A stretch of DNA of 64,000 nucleotides from Cokeromyces recurvatus (taxonomy: Eukaryota; Mucoromycota; Mucoromycetes; Mucorales; Mucoraceae): NCBI RefSeq assembly GCF_025118155.1, contig NW_026251405.1:62001-126000 (forward strand). The letters run 5' to 3'. The notes below the pieces were generated by a model. That model was given only the letters and a program-made list of their open reading frames with translations, searched no databases and was not told where the DNA came from. Numbering within the stretch: position 1 is the stretch's first letter; each line of letters starts with the position of its first letter. Positions 9,720 through 62,496 of the stretch are shown here, in pieces. Both the position numbers and the translations under genes were made by a program.

Positions 9720-9744
9720 CGCTCTTTCTTAAATCACATGGAAC

Positions 9745-9780
<36 letters not shown>

Positions 9781-11399
9781 GCACATTTTTTTTTCCATTT
9801 TGGCACACTTCCTAATTCGATTTAGCACACAAACTTAATCGAGTTTGGTACAGTTTAAAAATTTTCTTAAAAAAAATGGCATCCTTTTACTTTTAATGAA
9901 AAGAAATTGTTTTTATTTTCTTTAAATTTCATATATAAGCGATGTCTCTCTCCATATTTTTTTTTGAAGACGGAAAGGGTGGTGCCATGGATGAAAATGA
10001 CCGTGAACCGGTTCAAATGGAAGTGGATGAGGAAGCGTGCCCCTTTAGACGATATCACTGACTTTGAAATGCATTCTGAAATGAAGCCGCCGGAAAGAAT
10101 AGTAAAAAGCAAAGGTCATACTCTGAATGGATTTAAAGATGATCAAACAAGGAAAAGACACCAAGGTCATGTCAAAGATCTATTTTCTTTTTTTTTCACA
10201 TTTATGAGAAAGGTTTAACTGCAGGAAAAGCTGCGAAATTAGCAAATATCCCCTTGACCAAACGGCATACAATTGGCTCCAGAAGGGATCAGCTTGAGAT
10301 ACAAAAATCTCCTGAGGATAAGGAGAAAGAGAGGAATAATGAGGAAGTTGAGAATTTTGAGAATAAATTAAAAAAAAAAAAAAAGCAGGAAGACAGAAAA
10401 TGTTGTATGAAAATCACAAGGAGTACCTTGTACAGACATTTGATGATAATCCCTCCACAATAGTAGATCAAGCATTAGATGGCTTGACTACTCAATTTGA
10501 TGGTCTGAAAGTTTCTCGGGCGACTGTTCACAAGTTCATGACAGAAGATTACGCTCTATCACAGAAAAAAAAAAGCATACTTTTATTCTACGGAAAGAAA
10601 CTCCCCTGAAAAGATCCAGCAGAGATACGAATGGGTAGTTAAATGGTCAGAGACGGATCTAGATTTTGAGAGAAACTGTGTCTTTATTGATGAAGCGGCA
10701 TTCCACATCAACATGAAAAGAAGAGTAGCTTGGTCGCAAGAAAGGCGAGAGAGCAATAGTCGAAACGCCCACAACAAGGGCACAGACAACGACGCCATTG
10801 GGGAAGGGGAGGCCATTTCACCTTTTGGTGTCATCAGTGTCAAAGTAAGGTGGCCGTATGAGGCTCCCTCAAAAATAAAACGGGAATTGCCTGGTGCATC
10901 CAAAGCTATCAAAACTACAGGTACTGTCATTGACCATTATTTTAATTTTATTGGGAGTGTTCTTGATGTTATGGATGAGCATGAAGATATCGGAAGATAC
11001 GTTATCAATCGAGGCTATGGCTGTATATATATATATATATATATCCCCCTATTCCCCAGAATTGAATCCAATAAAGTAATTCTGGTCTGTTGTCAAGAGC
11101 AAGCTCAAGAGGGAGAAACTTCTACAGAAAGAAACTCTCACTTCAAGGATTTCTGAAGCTTGTAACAGTATTCTTTATAGTGACTTGCGAGGCTTTTATC
11201 GTTATTCTGCATCCAAATGGCAGTTGTGTTTTGATAAACAGCCACTTTAATGTGATAGCATACTTTTTTGCCATGAATAAAAAAAAAAAAAAATGTGCCA
11301 TAACAAAAGTCGGCAGTTGTTCCAAACCGAAACCGAATTATAATGTATGCCAAAAAATGGTGCCATAAAAAAGTGTGCCATGTGATTTAAGAAAGAGTG
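9720..11399 (+). mobile_element. Tc1-like DNA transposon A (inactivated)
   Basis: 1680-bp element bounded by a TA duplication at 9718-9719 and 11400-11401, the hallmark of Tc1/mariner insertion. The ends are inverted: left CGCTCTTTCTTAAATCACAT, and the right end reads the same on the other strand apart from one base within the first 20. Inside the left end, hexamers GGAACA, GGCACA, GGCACA, AGCACA and GGTACA start at 9740, 9780, 9802, 9824 and 9847, a 22-23 bp repeat with one double step over a poly-T tract. The interior holds a broken transposase on the + strand. It lies 48 bp upstream of the likely start of the DDT/WHIM gene. Confidence 0.92.
9966..11250 (+). pseudogene. Broken Tc1-like transposase of element A
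   Basis: Degenerate DD34E-type transposase related to the intact one at 27297-28427. Recognisable pieces in order: N-terminal FEDGKGGAMDEN (about 9966), KPPERI (about 10084), a helix-turn-helix region FYEKGLTAGKAAKLANIPL, a linker FDDNPSTIVDQALDGL, the first catalytic Asp in FIDEAAFHINMKR (about 10683-10720) and the terminal PYSPELNPI (about 11050). Several frame changes separate the pieces. The DNAPIH segment carrying the second Asp is missing, replaced by a TA microsatellite. The codon expected for the catalytic Glu after NPI reads AAG (Lys) and is followed by TAA. The copy cannot encode an active enzyme. Confidence 0.88.
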
Positions 11400-26621: not shown

Positions 26622-26909
26622 TAAAGTTTCATTTTTTGTGTTACGATTTATATACTGTACAACTTGATAACCCTTACACAAAAGTACAAGTTCTTTGTAA
26701 AAGATTAGAATATGTAAATCAGTATAATATAGATGTACATACATCTGTACAAAATAAAATCAAGTTCATGATGACAATAAGATCTTGATTTACTTGTTTT
26801 TATTATAGCATACATTTTATAATTATTCCCCTTTCTTTTTTTATAGAGGAATATCACTTAAAAATATATACTCACTAAAATGAATCGAATTGAACTAAAC
26901 AAGTATATA

Positions 26910-27045
26910 CAGTGCGTCCGCCGTCAATTGGACAATTTTTTGAAAAAGCTGGTCAAATTTTTGAATAAATTTGCCCACTTTTTTGAAACTCAATTGGTCA
27001 TTTGTTTGAAATTCATTTGGTCATTTTATTTAAATTCAATAGATC
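26910..27045 (+). repeat. Left TIR of element B, with ~22-bp internal array
   Basis: Inverted copy of 28485-28620. Within it a GGTCA-like core recurs at 26930 (GGACA), 26951, 26973 (GCCCA), 26996, 27019 and 27042 (GATCA), spacing 21-23 bp. Each core is followed by a T-rich stretch, then TTGAA or TTTAA. The array probably represents repeated transposase-binding sites (inference). Confidence 0.92.
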
Positions 27046-27296
27046 ATTTTTTTGATCATTTTATCTGAGGTATATTTTGTTACTTTTTTTTTATACCATT
27101 ATTTCGAGATTATTTTTCAAATGAGCATGAATATTTTTATGAAGATGGTGCTGGTAATCTCATTGATGAACAGGGCGAGCAAGCAAAAGCATATGTTGAA
27201 GAGAAGTCATTTCGTTTGAAAAGATTAACAGATCTACGAAAATACATTAAGAACAAGGATCTCCAATTTGAAACGATCAGTTCAGACGATACAGTC

Positions 27297-28427
27297 ATGA
27301 AAGAGGCTAGTCCAAAGAAAGAAAGACCTCTTGAGTATAACATTTATACAATGGAAGACCGTAGACGTTACTTTTATTTTTTGAAAGAAAAACTCATGAG
27401 ACCAAAAGATGCGGCCATAGCCGCAAATGTAAATTATAACACAGCGCGCAAATGGAAAAAGGCTTACGAGGATGATCCGGAAAGGAAGATTCCTATCAAA
27501 AAGACGAATCTGAATCCCAACAGACCAGTCAGTCAACTGAACGAAGCTCATAAAGTTTATCTAACCAGTTTTTTTGATGATGACTCAACTGCAACAATCC
27601 AGGACGCAGTTGAAAGCTTGACAGCCAACTTTGCTGGCTTACAAATAAAAAAAACAAGAGTAGCCGAGTTCATGAAGGAAGAATGTAATCTCAGCATCAA
27701 ACTTATTAACCGACACCCTCTTGCCAGAAACGATGATAAAAATCTTAAAGCTCGTGCTGAGTGGGTTGAGAAATTGATCAGCAATGGCGTCAATTATCTC
27801 GACAATTGTATATTTGTTGATGAGTCCGGGTTTGACATTAATATGCGTCGTAGTCGTGGTTGGTCACAGCGCGGTACGAAAGCAACTACCACAACTCCCT
27901 CCACCAAGGCTACCTCACATACTGTTCTTGGTGCAATATCAGCTAATGGTGTCGTCAATGTGAGTATGCGAGAATCTGGAAATGTTAAGAGAAGGAAAGT
28001 TGTAGGGGCCAAAAAGAGAAAGGCTCCTAAAGATAAATTAACTATTCCCAGTGGCACTACTGGCGATCATTATCTTTTGTTTCTTAACGATACTATGGAT
28101 ATTATGGATGAGTTCCCAGAAATGAAAGGATTTTTTATTGTTATGGACAATGCACCAATTCATGTTCCTGCTATAATTGACCCTGTAATTGTAAGTCGGG
28201 GCTATAAGCCATTATACCTTCCTCCCTACTCGCCCGAACTCAACCCAATAGAACAATTTTGGGCCATTCTTAAGGGAAAAGTAAAGCGAAGTAAACTTAA
28301 TGATGTTGAAACGCTTACTTCAAGAATTATTGAGGCTAGTGAAGAAGTACCTGTTGAGCATCTTCGAAATATTATTCAACATTCCATAAACCAATTTAGT
28401 AATTGCTTAAATAAGGTCCCTCTATAA
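27297..28427 (+). CDS. DD34E Tc1-like transposase of element B
   Basis: Cut-and-paste transposase. The frame is open from 27069 but its first in-frame ATG is at 27297, giving 376 residues. The upstream open part still encodes a module conserved in the other copies (YFYEDGAGNLIDEQG), so the true start may lie in an upstream exon or use another mechanism. Domains: helix-turn-helix (RPKDAAIAANVNYNTARKWK), linker with FFDDDSTATIQDAVESL, catalytic Asp in IFVDESGFDINMRR, second Asp in FIVMDNAPIH and Glu in PYSPELNPIEQFW. There are 34 residues between the second Asp and the Glu. All three catalytic residues are present, with no stop or frameshift. Confidence 0.9.
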   Translation: MKEASPKKERPLEYNIYTMEDRRRYFYFLKEKLMRPKDAAIAANVNYNTARKWKKAYEDDPERKIPIKKTNLNPNRPVSQLNEAHKVYLTSFFDDDSTATIQDAVESLTANFAGLQIKKTRVAEFMKEECNLSIKLINRHPLARNDDKNLKARAEWVEKLISNGVNYLDNCIFVDESGFDINMRRSRGWSQRGTKATTTTPSTKATSHTVLGAISANGVVNVSMRESGNVKRRKVVGAKKRKAPKDKLTIPSGTTGDHYLLFLNDTMDIMDEFPEMKGFFIVMDNAPIHVPAIIDPVIVSRGYKPLYLPPYSPELNPIEQFWAILKGKVKRSKLNDVETLTSRIIEASEEVPVEHLRNIIQHSINQFSNCLNKVPL

Positions 28428-28484
28428 CTTTCCCTTAACATTATATAAAGTATAATAATTTTCAAAAAAAAAAAAAAAAAAAAA

Positions 28485-28620
28485 GATCAATTGAATTTAA
28501 ATAAAATGACCAAATGAATTTCAAACAAATGACCAATTGAGTTTCAAAAAAGTGGGCAAATTTATTCAAAAATTTGACCAGCTTTTTCAAAAAATTGTCC
28601 AATTGACGGCGGACGCACTG
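28485..28620 (-). repeat. Right TIR of element B
   Basis: Reverse-complement partner of 26910-27045, one mismatch over 136 bp (TTGATC here against TAGATC on the left). It is preceded by a poly-A run at 28465-28484. Confidence 0.92.
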
Positions 28621-28790
28621 TAAGAATGGAAAGAAGCGATTATATACACATATATATTTGTATATATGTATATGTGTATGGATACACAAAGGGGATGTAA
28701 TCTCATAGGGCCATATCGTTCATTTTGAGCTTATCTTTTCTATATTGCTTTAATGACCTTTTTTTTTTTTAATCGTCTTTATTTGTTATA

Positions 28791-28946
28791 CAGCCAGTAC
28801 GATGGATATTGTCACCAATTAGCAAATATTTACCGACAGTTGAGAAATAATTGTCGCAAAAGAAATTTCAATTTGTCGTTTTTATTTTTGTTGATTGTCG
28901 TTTTAGGGAAAAGCGTATTGTCGCATCAGATTAGCTTAAATTGTCG
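28791..28946 (+). repeat. Left end of element C with TTGTC array
   Basis: TTGTC occurs at 28809, 28851, 28873, 28895, 28918 and 28941. The missing position near 28830 holds a diverged copy (ACCGACAG); at the right end the matching position still reads TTGTCGG. The spacing is therefore 21-23 bp over seven sites. Confidence 0.85.
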
Positions 28947-29004
28947 TAGTGTTTTCCTCTTCTTGAGCTCTTCTTTTTGTTTAATACATTTTTTTGTTTT
29001 TAGT

Positions 29005-29660
29005 TTGAGTTGTGGAGAGGTCTTTTCTATTACGAAGATGGGCACGATAACCTGTACGACAAGAAGGGTATGATAGTTTATGATCCAATGGAGGGTGTTC
29101 TAACTGAGGTAACCCAATCCTAATGTGGTTCTTGAAAGACTAACCGATCAAAGCACTTGGAGAAAATTAAAACCACCTGAGAAGATTGCTGTAGAAAACA
29201 TAGTTAAAGTAATGCTAATTAAGCCGGCAAAGAATACAGAAAGTACCGTGACAGGCAACGAGATGACTTTATTGATAGAATGATTGAAAGTGCTCAAGAA
29301 AGAGGCCTAGCTACCCAGTTCGCTAGAGAACTTGGGATCGAACCATGTGTGGCTCAAAGATGATGGAAAATGTACAGAGAAACGGGAGAAGTGCCTTACA
29401 AAAAGTCTTCTATAAGTTCTGGTCCTCAGTCTTCTTTCACCAACGATCACAACAAATTTTTGAGGAATCTAGTGGGCGATGAACCCCTTCTAGATTGATA
29501 TGGATGAAATAATGAGGGAGGTTAGCTGAACAATTCGAAAATTTTAGCATCTCAAAATCTCAACTCAATAATTACCTTCAGTCTTTACATATATAACTAT
29601 ACTCAATGATCAATACCCAAAGAAAATTCTCCTTGGAGAAAATTGTGTTGAAAAAAATTG
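29005..29660 (+). pseudogene. Decayed transposase of element C
   Basis: Fragments in changing frames with many stops. They include an N-terminal YYEDGHDNLYDKKG (about 29015), KLKPPEKIAVEN (about 29170), a helix-turn-helix-like RMIESAQERGLATQFARELG (about 29275) with MYRETGEVPYKKSS, and NDHNKFLRNLVGDEP (about 29440). The order matches the N-terminal half of the element B transposase; no catalytic DDE half is recognisable. Non-functional. Confidence 0.8.
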
Positions 29661-31989
29661 TGTTGACAAAAAAATCACTAGTTGGAAAACCAAAGTTAGT
29701 TTGTTTCCAGATAGAATAATGAGTACTTATGATAGCAAGGCTTGAAACAACTTCAAGTTATACCCTAAAGATGAACAGTCTTTTGTACAGCAATTAGATT
29801 ATGAATGCTCTTTATGAATGTTGGCTAGTTTTAGTCTTATTCTGGTAGTTTACATTCTAGTGATGCTGAATTTATTTAACCACACATAACTTACCTTGAG
29901 AGGAAAGAAATCTTAGGGAAAATATACAATAATCTTTTTAATATTTATACACTGTGCTGCTATAGTCTTTCACCACTTTTTTCATATACGCTTAATTATT
30001 AAATAATATTAGAGAAGCAACTTTATTATAAAACGATTTTTATTAATTTTTTTTTTTTCATTTTTGTTAATATTATAAAAAAAGATGCTTTTCTTAGTTC
30101 TCAGATCTCTTTAAAAGAGACTTGATACTAACAGGATTAACCACGAGAAGGTGAAAGCATATCTAATCCCAAAAATAATATTACAACCCATACAAATTGA
30201 TACAGGCTGTAATTTTTTCTTCTCCCTCTAAATTTCTACTTGAAAGATAAACGTCCAGTTTCAACTAGTAGACACTTGGCAAAGTCCAACCTGGCCCAAG
30301 CCTTGCTAGAAGAAAAAGATAGGATTCCTCACTTCCTACCCCAATAAAAAATACAGTTGGATGTAAGTTTCACTGGAAGCCGGGCTAAACATTCTGACCT
30401 GTAGCGTGGCGAAGTGGAAGGAATCCAGATATATGAAGTGCACGACCTGACTATTGTTTACCTGAGAATGTCCCTTCTTTGACCCCTAGCATCTACTTTT
30501 GACTTAACAGTAAATACAAGTTGGGATTCTTCAACTAAATAAATAGATGAAAAAACCACGGTCAGAAACGTAAGCTGTGCATCCTTATCTATTTTTATTT
30601 TATAAACAGCAACTAGATAAAAATAAAAAGAAGGAAAAACCTCCAAAAAGAAAAACAGAAAAACTAAACCTTGAGATAAGCCCTTTCAATGGTGCAGACA
30701 AAGAGTACGCTAATCTCCCTAAAAAAGGAACAGGTTTACAATTTCCAACCCCAAGTATCCTTTTTATTTCCCTCCTCCTTTGGAAATAAATCAAACTTGA
30801 GCAGTCAAAATTCGATAAGGTCCCATCAATTATCTAAGGTTGCAATAACCCAAGGTGAAGGCGGATATGCATGTAGTAACCAAAAGAGAGTCTAGGCCCT
30901 CCCCTTTAGCCATGTTATAAACGGACAGTTCTACAAACTCAAGTAAGCCAAGCTATGTGACTTGAGCACACTTCATAACCCTGACAATGTCTACCCGTAG
31001 TTTCAAGTAAAAATAAAGAAGAATAGGAAAAATAAAAAAAGCTAAAGAAAAAGAAGAAGAAGAAAAGGGAAAAAAACAAAAAATGTACTTTTTTTTTATA
31101 GTAAAATTCAGGAGAAAAAAAATAAACAAAAAGAAGGAGAAGTTATTAAAGTTAAATTTTAGCGTATTTTTTTTGTTTTTAATTTACTTTGCGATAAATC
31201 TTCTCTCCTGCCTTTCTCCTTTTCTTTTTTTTCTCTTTTCTTTTTAATACTTTAGAGATAAGTTTTGCCTTTTATTTGAATGTAGTAAAGCATTACTGCC
31301 TTCTTTGAAAGTAAGCAAGAAAGTAAGAAAGTAAGAAAAAAAAAAGAAGATGTTTGTTTACTTTTTTTATATGTATTTATATTCATGTGAATATATTGAG
31401 CATTCTTGTAAAGAAATTAAGCCAAAACTAGTCAAATTCAGTTACACGACAGAGCATGATGTTCATAGATAAGCTATCAATAATATAAAAAATGGTATTT
31501 TATACAACAGTTTTATTTTTATTTTTAGACACACACACAATCTAGACGCTTTTTTTTCTTACAATTAGTTTTACAAGATGTTCTCTTTTAGCTTTGTTGT
31601 AGAATGCTTTTTTTTTCAATTGTACAAGATACTCTTGGCGGTTCATGCATTTTAAGTAGTTAAGCTGTAAGCTTTCTTATTACTGTATTATGGCAATTGA
31701 GCTCTTTTTTATGATGATCGTGATAACAAGGCTTTTTAGATTTTGATCAGTTTGAAAGGAATAATGGCTTTGAAGAGAAGAAAGAGATAGAGTTTCAAAG
31801 AGTGTACAAAAGATAATACGATGAAAAAAAAAAAAGATATGATATTTTTTATTTCATATTCAGGCTTATAATTTGTCCTGTATTATGTAATTCATCTTTT
31901 ATAATATTGCTTATGCTTATATCCAGAGCTTGTTCTCTAATAAAATTATATAAAGAGCCTCTCTAAAAAATTTCAATAAAATTACAAAA

Positions 31990-32063
31990 AACCTTTGCGA
32001 CAATTATTTCTTAACTGCCGACAAATATTTGTTAATTGGCGACAATATCCATCGTATTGGCTG
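31990..32063 (-). repeat. Right terminal inverted repeat of element C
   Basis: Pairs with 28791-28862 in inverse orientation. Read on the minus strand, TTGTC occurs at distances 19, 40 and 61 from the end, i.e. every 21 bp. Confidence 0.88.
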
Positions 32064-59389: not shown

Positions 59390-59629
59390 TCTTAGATAAT
59401 ATTATTTTTTAGCGCTCGAATACTCTAACAATGAATGTTGTATAATGAACATTATGCTGTGACGTACAATACACTAGTTTTATTTGAATAACTTCTTTAT
59501 TATGTAATAATTGATGGTTTATTTTTATTAACTTGGTTGTAAATACGACTACAATCATAACAACCATCTCCGGCAACGAACAATCAAAAAATATAAAAAA
59601 TAGTTCACAAAAAGATTCTAAATTATACA
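58943..59629. other. Intergenic with 62-nt poly-T run
   Basis: Spacer between the Serinc gene and the transposase remnant. It contains an unbroken T run at 59326-59387 (62 nt), the longest in the window. The terminal repeats of the neighbouring remnant could not be found. Confidence 0.5.
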
Positions 59630-60290
59630 TGAAGATGGTAAAGGAAACCTTCACAATGAAGAAGGCGAACGAGTTGCAGTTCTTGAGATGGAAGTTGATG
59701 AATTAGAATATCCTCTTGAGGATGTTACTAATTACGACATGTATTTGGACTTGAAGCCACCTGAAAAAACCTGCCAAGATTGAACAAGATTAGGAACAAG
59801 TGGTTACGAAGGACGAAGAAAAAAAAAAAGATAATAATGGAAATAAAAGAACATACCGAACTTATAAGCCTGAGGTCAAAAACTACTTTTTTACCTTATT
59901 TATGAGAAAGGGATGAGTGTACGTGCCGCTGCTGAGGAAATAAAAGTGCCTTAAAGTACGGCACAAACTTGGAAAAAGAAAGCCGAGCTTGCTGGGGATG
60001 AAGAAATGAGCCTGAGACAAACTGGAAGTGGTAGAAAAACTGGTAGACCTCCTGTTCTTACAGAGGAGCATAAACAGTTTTTGACCAATTTCATTGACGA
60101 AAAGCCATCTTCTGTATTGGAAGAAATGATAGAAGGTCTCACTAGTCAATTCCCCGGTATTGAAATAAAAAAATCAGCAGTTCATGATTTTGTAACCAAA
60201 AAATGCAATATCACCCTTAAGCGAGTTCATTTCCACTCAGTAGAAAGGAATAGTCCTGAAAAAACTGAGGAGCGGTACCACTGGGTCTTG
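59630..60290 (+). pseudogene. Tc1-like transposase remnant D
   Basis: N-terminal half of a transposase like those of elements A and B. It reads HEDGKGNLHNEEGERV (about 59630), LEDVTNYDMYLDLKPPEK (about 59718), a helix-turn-helix part YEKGMSVRAAAEEIKVP (about 59902) and AQTWKKKAELAGDEE. It continues GRPPVLTEEHKQFLTNFIDE and ERNSPEKTEERYHWV (about 60246-60286). A stop follows the HTH and frame changes occur in poly-A. Similarity ends abruptly at about 60286, before the first catalytic Asp. No terminal repeats or TA duplication were found; it is a truncated relic. Confidence 0.85.
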
Positions 60291-60600
60291 GTTCTTTCAT
60301 TAAAAAGAGCTGCTTTACATTTTGATTTTAATACATGAGATTTCATACTTTCTCTAGTCAAGTGTTCTTTATTACAGAAAGCGCATTCTAAATGATCGTT
60401 TTTTCTTTCTATTACAGCTTTTTCATAAATTCCTGAAAAACAAGAGTCAACAATTGTAGATTCGAATCTAAATTGAACGTAAATTCAACTGTTGCAGTGA
60501 TAGTGCATTTTTTACAATGCCTTTCAAATTCATGCCTTTTGAGGGCGTCATTGGTATTGAAGTTTTCTTCACAATCGTTGCATGTTAACAACGAGGGAGA
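60284..60600 (-). pseudogene. C2H2 zinc-finger gene fragment
   Basis: Minus-strand reading gives two finger-like units: LTCNDCEENFNTNDALKRHE with FERHC (about 60583-60510), and LECAFCNKEHLTRESMKSHV with LKSKC (about 60390-60313). A change of frame is needed between them near 60460-60480, and the gap is too short for an intron. No start codon or partner exons are evident. It starts where transposase remnant D stops. It could be a broken host gene or a piece carried by a mobile element. Confidence 0.5.
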
Positions 60601-61029
60601 TAAAAAAAAAAAGAAAAAATAAAATGGACCCGACTGTTGTATTCATACAACAATCCTGCTTAAAAACATAAATATTATATACACAGTCTTAATTGTAAGA
60701 AAGATATATAATAAAAAAGAATAAAAACAAGAAAGTAAAGTGATAAAGAATATATAAGGATAATCGGTAATGAGAATAGTCAAAAAGAATCTCAAGTTTT
60801 ATGAATATTTAAACACGCAACATTTATCCTTATTCTTTATAAAATGGAAAAAAGGAATAACTGGTAAATGGTTCATAACATTTACTAATTAACGTATTGT
60901 ATTTAGTGCTAAGAGCGATTGATCAATCTATTATACAATTACTGGTATTTCTTAAGACATTATGTGCATAATAACTGTGACTGGAATAACTATAGAAAAC
61001 ATGAAGCATGATATGATATGTGATTGGTC
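60601..61029. other. Spacer upstream of the LINE ORF1
   Basis: 429 bp of AT-rich DNA. It may include the 5' untranslated region of the retrotransposon, since non-LTR elements carry an internal promoter there, but no boundary or target duplication can be identified. Confidence 0.35.
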
Positions 61030-62496
61030 ATGGTTCCTCCGCTACAAAACACTTCTGGGACGTTGCCTCCAGACAACGTTACCACTTTATCAAATTCTAA
61101 CTCTTTGTCTCCTCTTTCTGAGACTAACAACACCCCCTCAACTATTCGTAGCTATGCTTCAGTCACTGCAACTTCATCTCGAGACTCTCGTTTGGATTCT
61201 AAAAAACCCTCAAAATCCATGCCTCCTCACCCCAGAAAAGAGTTGTCGCTTTTTCGCTCCACTGAAATTGAGAATTGTTCCAACGATTCCTCCAAGCGTC
61301 TTGTTCACCTTACGGGTACTACTGAACATTCCGTGTTTTATCATATTCCTAAGCACCTTTCATCCTTGAGATCAGCCCTGGCCTTAGAACTAAGCCATAA
61401 ATTCCCCCTTGGAGTCGGTCTCGGATTAACTTTAACCGAAGACTCTACAGGCACCAATATGGAATTTACTTTAGCTTCAAAAGGCGATTGTGAGTCAGCC
61501 ATTGCTTCACCTATCAACGTTGGAGATACGTTTTTCCATGCCTCTCCTGCAGTTCATCCAGATCGAGCTCTACTACGTATCAATTTGACCAAACTTCCCA
61601 TCTGGACTTTAGATAAGCTTCGCAACAGTCTTCTAAACAATTTATCACGATATGGTATCGTCCGTGAGATTGTCATTTATTTGGATGATTGGTCTGGATC
61701 ATGGCCCACAGGTAACGGTCATGTCTACATGGAACGTCCTAGTAATGCCAATAAAACTCATGACGTTTTGACTTATAACATTCCACTTGAAGGAGAAAAT
61801 ACCTTTTGTCTCGGCACCTGGACAAACATGGGCAAACACTGTGTATACTGTAAAGGTAGCGATCATTACCGTAAAGATTGCACTAAAGCACCCTCCGAAA
61901 AACGTCGTTGTTATCAATGTGGTAACGTAGGTCACATTGCAAGGAATTGTTTCCGAACTAAAACAGACAATACCACATCGAGTAAGCGTCGTCGAGAAGT
62001 CAATGTTCAAACCCGACCTGCTAGTATCATAGTTCCTCATGCATCCTCAGAAGATCAATCTCCTCCCTGTCCTGATTCTAAAAACTTAGAATCCGTTGAC
62101 GATGTCCCTCTCATCGTTTCTTCCATTGGTGCAACGAGTCCACCAACTAGTCCTACTATTGAGGATGATACTGTTTCACCTCTTTTCGATCCACAAACGG
62201 AGAATGCTAACTCTGAGATAAACACTTCTAGACTCAATCCTCGACCTACTCGGTCAACGGCAGGTACAAATTCTACACTGGCGGATTATTTGACAAATCT
62301 TCCTAATGAGAAGCGTTGTAAATGTGGCGGTACTGACCATCAGAAAACGAACAGTAAAAAGTGTCCTCTTAACAAAAAGAATCAAGATAGTCACAATATT
62401 GATCTTAACGAGAATTTGATTGCCATCACTCCTGTAGATACTTCTAGCGTAGAATCGGACAGTTTGGGTGGTTCCAATGCTATGGAGGAAGATTAA
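61030..62496 (+). CDS. LINE ORF1, zinc-knuckle nucleic-acid-binding protein
   Basis: 488 residues from the first ATG after an in-frame stop at 61021. Ser/Thr-rich N-terminus, a central folded part (LSHKFPLGVGLGLTL, LTKLPIWTLDKLRNSLLNNL), then two adjacent CCHC knuckles, CVYCKGSDHYRKDC and CYQCGNVGHIARNC (about 61840-61950). Near the C-terminus a third Cys/His unit, CKCGGTDHQKTNSKKC. Such gag-like proteins coat the element RNA. The frame is uninterrupted, consistent with a recent copy. Confidence 0.9.
   Translation: MVPPLQNTSGTLPPDNVTTLSNSNSLSPLSETNNTPSTIRSYASVTATSSRDSRLDSKKPSKSMPPHPRKELSLFRSTEIENCSNDSSKRLVHLTGTTEHSVFYHIPKHLSSLRSALALELSHKFPLGVGLGLTLTEDSTGTNMEFTLASKGDCESAIASPINVGDTFFHASPAVHPDRALLRINLTKLPIWTLDKLRNSLLNNLSRYGIVREIVIYLDDWSGSWPTGNGHVYMERPSNANKTHDVLTYNIPLEGENTFCLGTWTNMGKHCVYCKGSDHYRKDCTKAPSEKRRCYQCGNVGHIARNCFRTKTDNTTSSKRRREVNVQTRPASIIVPHASSEDQSPPCPDSKNLESVDDVPLIVSSIGATSPPTSPTIEDDTVSPLFDPQTENANSEINTSRLNPRPTRSTAGTNSTLADYLTNLPNEKRCKCGGTDHQKTNSKKCPLNKKNQDSHNIDLNENLIAITPVDTSSVESDSLGGSNAMEED

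Follow-up and report, generated by a model that had tools for sequence, protein, structure and literature searches.

Regularly spaced core arrays at the ends of Tc1/mariner-like elements in Cokeromyces recurvatus

Tc1/mariner-like transposons of the Mucorales fungus Cokeromyces recurvatus carry, at many of their ends, direct arrays of a short core repeated about every 22 bp. By analogy with the TnsB ends of Tn7/CAST, we consider it likely that these putative transposase-binding cores load several transposases on each end. Few transposon groups have been studied as thoroughly as Tc1/mariner; the solved Mos1 transpososomes pair two simple ends, and for the best-known relatives one to three transposase sites per end have been described. 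A literature search, with most subscription journals outside it, returned no description of such arrays in Tc1/mariner, and the array-ended elements are probably a new variant of this superfamily. A clade with evenly spaced sites offers natural variation for probing the roles of extra sites in occupancy, end pairing and self-repression. A register that stays fixed while the cores change also bears on how one protein geometry can outlast large changes in the recognition sequence. Near-identical recent copies of one family, B, make the system accessible to experiment, and the arrays flag such elements after their genes have decayed, as in family C.

Arrays in the window and their copies

The window, a stretch of 64,000 nucleotides, holds elements A, B and C, whose coordinates are given in Table 1. 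Direct reading gives the 5' cores of B as GGACA (26930), GGTCA (26951), GCCCA (26973), GGTCA (26996 and 27019) and GATCA (27042), and those of A as GGAACA (9740), GGCACA (9780 and 9802), AGCACA (9824) and GGTACA (9846). In C, TTGTC starts at 28809, 28851, 28873, 28895, 28918 and 28941. An earlier note on this DNA had listed these cores, and its positions are all confirmed by reading except that of the last core of A, which it had placed at 9847. The note had put one further C site, at 28830, in brackets. This second site is degenerate in the window copy (TTTACC from 28829), and all 15 aligned relatives have a repeat-like sequence there, reading T, any base, T or C, then GT, with an exact GTC in 12 of the 15.

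Table 1. Elements A, B and C in the window, with their arrays and the transposase frame of B
Feature	Coordinates	Strand	Description
Element A	9720..11399	+	TA-flanked; transposase interrupted by stops and frame changes
A 5' array	9740..9851	+	five GGCACA-like cores; a T run separates the first core from the rest
Element B	26910..28620	+	1711 bp; TA flanks at 26908-26909 and 28621-28622; inverted repeat of 161 nt, 95%
B 5' array	26930..27046	+	six GGTCA-like cores; starts 21-23 bp apart
B transposase ORF	27216..28427	+	DDE_3 (Pfam), DD34E
B 3' array	28484..28603	-	six cores; inverted copy of the B 5' array
Element C	28791..32063	+	decayed copy; inverted repeat of 79 nt, 89%; TA-flanked
C 5' array	28808..28946	+	seven TTGTC cores, the second one degenerate
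C 3' array	31997..32046	-	three cores; 44 nt (two units) short against five other 3' arms

Periodicity was measured as the mean autocorrelation at lags 21-23 and compared with 1000 dinucleotide shuffles, with a p floor of 0.001. Both ends of B lie at this floor, and p is 0.004 and 0.001 for the 5' and 3' ends of C and 0.009 for the 5' end of A. The maximum over lags 12-60 stands out for B (0.001 at both ends) and for the 5' end of A (0.04), and it does not for C (0.34 and 0.12) or for the 3' end of A (0.89). A chain test that tolerates variation in spacing reaches its floor at both ends of B, at both ends of C and at the 5' end of A. A lag scan of the window, which is a ranking and not a significance test, gives 23 peaks above the cut-off; lags 22-23 appear only at the two B ends, and the 3' end of C is present at lag 21. 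An array at the 3' end of A was considered and is rejected, with p = 0.28 against dinucleotide shuffles at lags 21-23 and p = 0.16 in the chain test. The earlier note had suggested a multimer on each end and would have been refuted by autocorrelation no stronger than in shuffled AT-rich sequence; the period exceeds that of shuffled sequence at the two B ends, the two C ends and the 5' end of A, and the 3' end of A is the exception. The 22-bp arrays at the 5' end of A and at the ends of B and C are confirmed as real.

The array-bearing element B has moved recently, because six copies are nearly identical: of 1716 columns, 3 vary and a further 11 hold gaps. Each of the six is bordered by TA on either side, and the sequence beyond differs from copy to copy. 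The TA duplication is also found in 4 of 4 copies of family E and in 4 of 5 copies of family D; for the fifth, a search with the exact tip word did not place the end. One B copy, at C1:940946-942657, sits between two short opposite-orientation matches to the B array (region C1:939447-944139), as if it had landed inside an older element whose ends resemble its own.

In family C, no DDE_3 gene can be recognised in the window copy, and DDE_3 matches adjoin other genome copies of the same end family. There are 46 end matches in the genome, from which 20 stretches were taken and 15 rows aligned with the 5' arm; four of these rows (L084, L085, L087 and L090) run into 3'-arm sequence. Units are lost whole and in phase: one 22-nt unit is absent from the 5' arm in 4 of the 15 rows, and the 44 nt missing from the window's 3' arm are present in all five other 3' arms. 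Since the number of units in the array varies, either these copies could move without a set number of sites or the loss came afterwards.

Ends of other families in the host genome

The survey covered one genome (28 Mb), that of C. recurvatus, in which a search gave at least 184 DDE_3 matches and at least 109 matches to the B protein. Families were chosen when both ends were given by the inverted-repeat finder or by the window, and the period was ignored in choosing. The first set comprises 14 families and 28 ends, with approximate boundaries for I and M. Six ends from families U, W and O, which also have inverted repeats, bring it to 17 families and 34 ends. The ends of N, P, Q, R, S and T were read by eye, and together with V these families stand outside every count. 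In the chain test, successive 8-nt words had to lie 19-24 bp apart, and comparison with 100 shuffles gave a floor of p = 0.0099.

In the 14-family set, 19 of the 28 ends reach the floor: both ends of B, C, D, E, F, G, H and I, plus A5, K3 and Lf5. Among the six added ends, U3 and O3 do so, the other four giving p = 0.08-0.47. The total is therefore 21 of 34 ends, with at least one such end in 13 of the 17 families and arrays at both ends in eight. The remaining 13 ends, among them all those of M, B2 and W, miss the floor at 19-24 bp; for A3, K5, M5, M3 and the two B2 ends p is 0.16 or more, and J5, J3 and Lf3 lie off the floor at p = 0.03-0.04. At other spacings (13-18, 25-30, 31-36 and 37-42 bp) the floor is reached by 0, 1, 1 and 0 of the 34 ends, the two being A3 (25-30 bp) and G5 (31-36 bp), with none from U, W or O. 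In the control drawn from the window, one of 51 segments outside A, B and C is at the floor (1/61). Six bacterial IS630 elements, used as a second control, have 0 of 12 ends at 0.0099, their lowest p being 0.0198.

The spacing of scored sites averages 22.4 bp (SD 1.2, n = 94 intervals), as obtained from iterated core models that allowed 19-25 bp, in which the chains of A3 and Lf3 are doubtful. Wherever the tip is well defined, some 18-21 bp separate the TA from the start of the first core, in families with unlike cores too; the offsets of A5, C5, C3 and H were adjusted by hand for a cut start, and I is without a clear tip. Many ends hold more than three repeats at a spacing of 20-24 bp, and a few, namely the 3' end of the window's C and those of family K, hold three or fewer. 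There are about six unlike core classes, across which spacing and register are constant. By eye the cores are GGTCA in B, CGTGCA-like in D, E, F and H, TTGTCG in C, GTCGCA in J and K, AATRAGA in G and Lf, and GGGACA in I.

Core columns carry more information than spacer columns in all six families measured, in a comparison where the register of some cores was off by one base. The values are 1.08 versus 0.19 bits in C, 0.90 versus 0.66 in B and 0.69 versus 0.53 in D, the excess in D and B being slight. Between units of the same rank in D, E, F and H (39 pairs), identity is 0.606 in cores, where chance gives 0.266, and 0.535 in spacers, where chance gives 0.431. As a share of what is possible, the excess over chance amounts to 46% in cores and 18% in spacers.

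A spacing of nearly equal length, about two helical turns, common to elements with different cores had been read from the window in the earlier note, and the chain test and the 22.4-bp mean bear it out. Other copies devoid of periodic cores would also have refuted the note. Periodic cores do recur elsewhere in the host genome, as the 21 floor-level ends attest, though not at every end, and the pattern withstands both of the checks that the note had named. The note's description of A, B and C as three unrelated families has to be given up, because their transposases are homologous DDE_3 proteins.

The transposases and their place among known systems

DDE_3 is found by Pfam in 47 of 47 aligned relatives of the B transposase. 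Among the best 120 of 475 matches, the nearest named relative is from Mucor saturninus (76% identity), and further relatives come from Rhizopus, Parasitella, Circinella, Backusella and Absidia. The catalytic triad D233, D342 and E377 is near-invariant, with 34 residues between the last two (DD34E), in a protein of about 435 residues. The predicted structure (pLDDT 74.7, pTM 0.55) has three-helix units at residues 77-117 and 141-186, ahead of the catalytic domain; Pfam matches to helix-turn-helix families are weak there, with HTH_23 and HTH_28 each in 24 of the 47 aligned proteins at E up to 0.1. The best solved matches in Foldseek are paired-end complexes of Mos1, aligned over the whole of Mos1 with E values from 7.6e-11, followed lower in the list by SETMAR and Sleeping Beauty. 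A search with sequence profiles puts Sleeping Beauty alone below 0.001 (2.4e-8). The DDE_3 domain with its DD34E triad, the TA duplication and the two helix-turn-helix units place these elements in Tc1/mariner (IS630-Tc1-mariner). The transposase is not of the TnsB/MuA type: it is DDE_3 by Pfam, and TnsB comes only at rank 40 in Foldseek (E 1.3e-3), against 7.6e-11 for Mos1.

A tree of the catalytic region, rooted on three bacterial IS630 rows as outgroup and including several rows stitched from broken frames, recovers the groups D/E/N/A/F/H (support 97), O/R/S/C (99), J/K (100), G/Lf (95) and B/B2/T/U (99), with a poorly supported branching order at depth. Element A, with its GGCACA core, falls in the clade of the CGTGCA-like D, E, F and H. 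The clades differ in their cores and have arrays alike, and the layout is therefore common to clades with unlike cores.

Many aligned Mucorales relatives share an N-terminal motif, FxxEDGxGNxxDExG, at about residues 7-22 of the B protein. In B itself the motif lies in 27123-27215, ahead of the annotated ORF and in its frame, which stays open from about 27123; ATG, GTG and TTG are all missing from this frame before the motif. The idea that arrays require the motif was dropped, since no match turned up in G, Lf, I, P or Q, and of these G, I and Lf (5' end) have floor-level arrays. In these five families the motif may be encoded in exons outside the sequence read, and the stretch available for C, K, S and V may be too short to include it. 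A basic loop (KRRKVVGAKKRK-like) is seen in most aligned relatives at about residues 285-300, between the first and second catalytic aspartates.

Mos1, the best solved structural match to the B transposase, belongs to the mariner elements, which have one site per end and a short inverted repeat. The Tc1-like elements of the IR/DR type (Sleeping Beauty, Minos, Paris, S and Bari) resemble those described here in their TA duplication, in a DDE transposase with two helix-turn-helix units and in their direct repeats. However, IR/DR elements have two or three repeats within long inverted repeats, whereas many ends here have more, and the IR/DR repeats lie far apart rather than every 22 bp. The pattern of two or three direct repeats per end does not hold for these elements. 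Gel shift and one-hybrid experiments show that the direct repeats of Bari1 bind its transposase (PMC3828361).

Bacterial IS630 elements share the DDE_3 transposase and the TA flanks, but the six compared are only 930-1037 bp long and lack a floor-level array at all 12 ends. By eye, three of these 12 ends carry a single GAGGTAC at +22 to +28, where the first core sits in the fungal elements. The array may thus have arisen by multiplication of a single ancestral core.

In number and spacing, the putative binding cores agree with the sites of Tn7/CAST, whose ends are unequal and hold several 22-bp TnsB sites each (PMC9371665). Tn7/CAST differs in its transposase family and target duplication, and the ShCAST sites are unevenly spaced. 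Galileo, of the P superfamily, presents a similar idea in a different superfamily: repeats in its long inverted repeats contain several sites for the transposase domain, and higher-order multimers have been proposed (PMC3688188). Tc1 elements of Mucor and Rhizopus are tabulated with the DD37E TRT group in PMC5630946, some with the values 211-216, apparently the length of the inverted repeat. These and TRT are Tc1-like, with transposases of up to 343 residues, compared with about 435 here, and DrTRT is DD37E, compared with DD34E here. The excerpts read from PMC5630946 contain no array for the Mucor and Rhizopus elements, and those from PMC4495683 nothing bearing on end arrays.

Proposed loading of several transposases and other readings

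An array-bearing end consists of a short tip (the TA and roughly 16-20 bp) and, inward of it, direct copies of the family's own core every 20-23 bp. In the proposed mechanism, the transposase encoded by the element would recognise each core with one of its two helix-turn-helix units. One transposase would fit about 22 bp, so that several molecules could line up from a fixed start at intervals of about two helical turns. Cleavage would fall to the molecule closest to the tip, and the others would raise occupancy and specificity and help to pair the ends; gene-side molecules may in addition keep the promoter repressed, making self-repression possible. The core would change with the transposase clade, and the size of the protein would set the spacing.

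A more specific picture is offered tentatively, as something possible that we would not yet expect to hold in full. This Mucorales Tc1-like clade may build its transpososome on a transposase-coated end, with three to eight subunits in head-to-tail order, the first at a fixed place and the others following at steps of 22-23 bp. Such an arrangement would be TnsB-like but separately evolved within Tc1/mariner, with core specificity drifting and protein geometry fixing the spacing.

The gene-side array extends almost to the gene start, and in seven of the eight families with arrays at both ends the gene side has more scored cores (E is a tie), in counts that are rough because weak tail sites are uncertain. 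Both features would fit arrays that are mainly regulatory, with the transposase or a host factor binding there to control the promoter of the transposase gene and the extra sites having no role in transposition; Hsmar1 is regulated via competition for binding sites (PMC3687335). Yet the arrays are not confined to the promoter side, because in eight families the far end is also at floor level, in the same register to the tip, and we regard a mainly regulatory role as unlikely. The whole-unit losses in C are what functionless tandem repeats, gaining and losing units by slippage or unequal recombination, would leave behind. Slippage alone does not predict a single period, however, and spacing and tip register are alike at both ends in clades with unlike cores, which are themselves better kept than the spacers; neutral repeats are thus a distinctly improbable explanation.

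Matches of A and T carry the period as strongly as those of G and C (median z 3.3 versus 2.9 across the 19 floor-level ends), and DNA bending may therefore contribute. It is very improbable, though, that bending or phased A/T tracts account for the period in place of protein recognition of the cores, given that G/C matches alone are periodic (z of at least 2 in 17 of the 19 ends) and that the best-kept columns are mostly core columns bearing G or C. Loading of several transposases on each end remains the reading that we prefer.

Two minor observations concern the far side of the window. At 59590-60340 lies a broken remnant of a D-type transposase, consisting of an ORF (60006-60338) and an upstream frame with HEDGKGN; it has no Pfam score at 0.001, and about one array unit (AATAGTTCACAAAAAG) remains in front of it. 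Further on, at 61024-62496, an ORF of 490 aa with a CCHC zinc knuckle is perhaps the first ORF of a retroelement.
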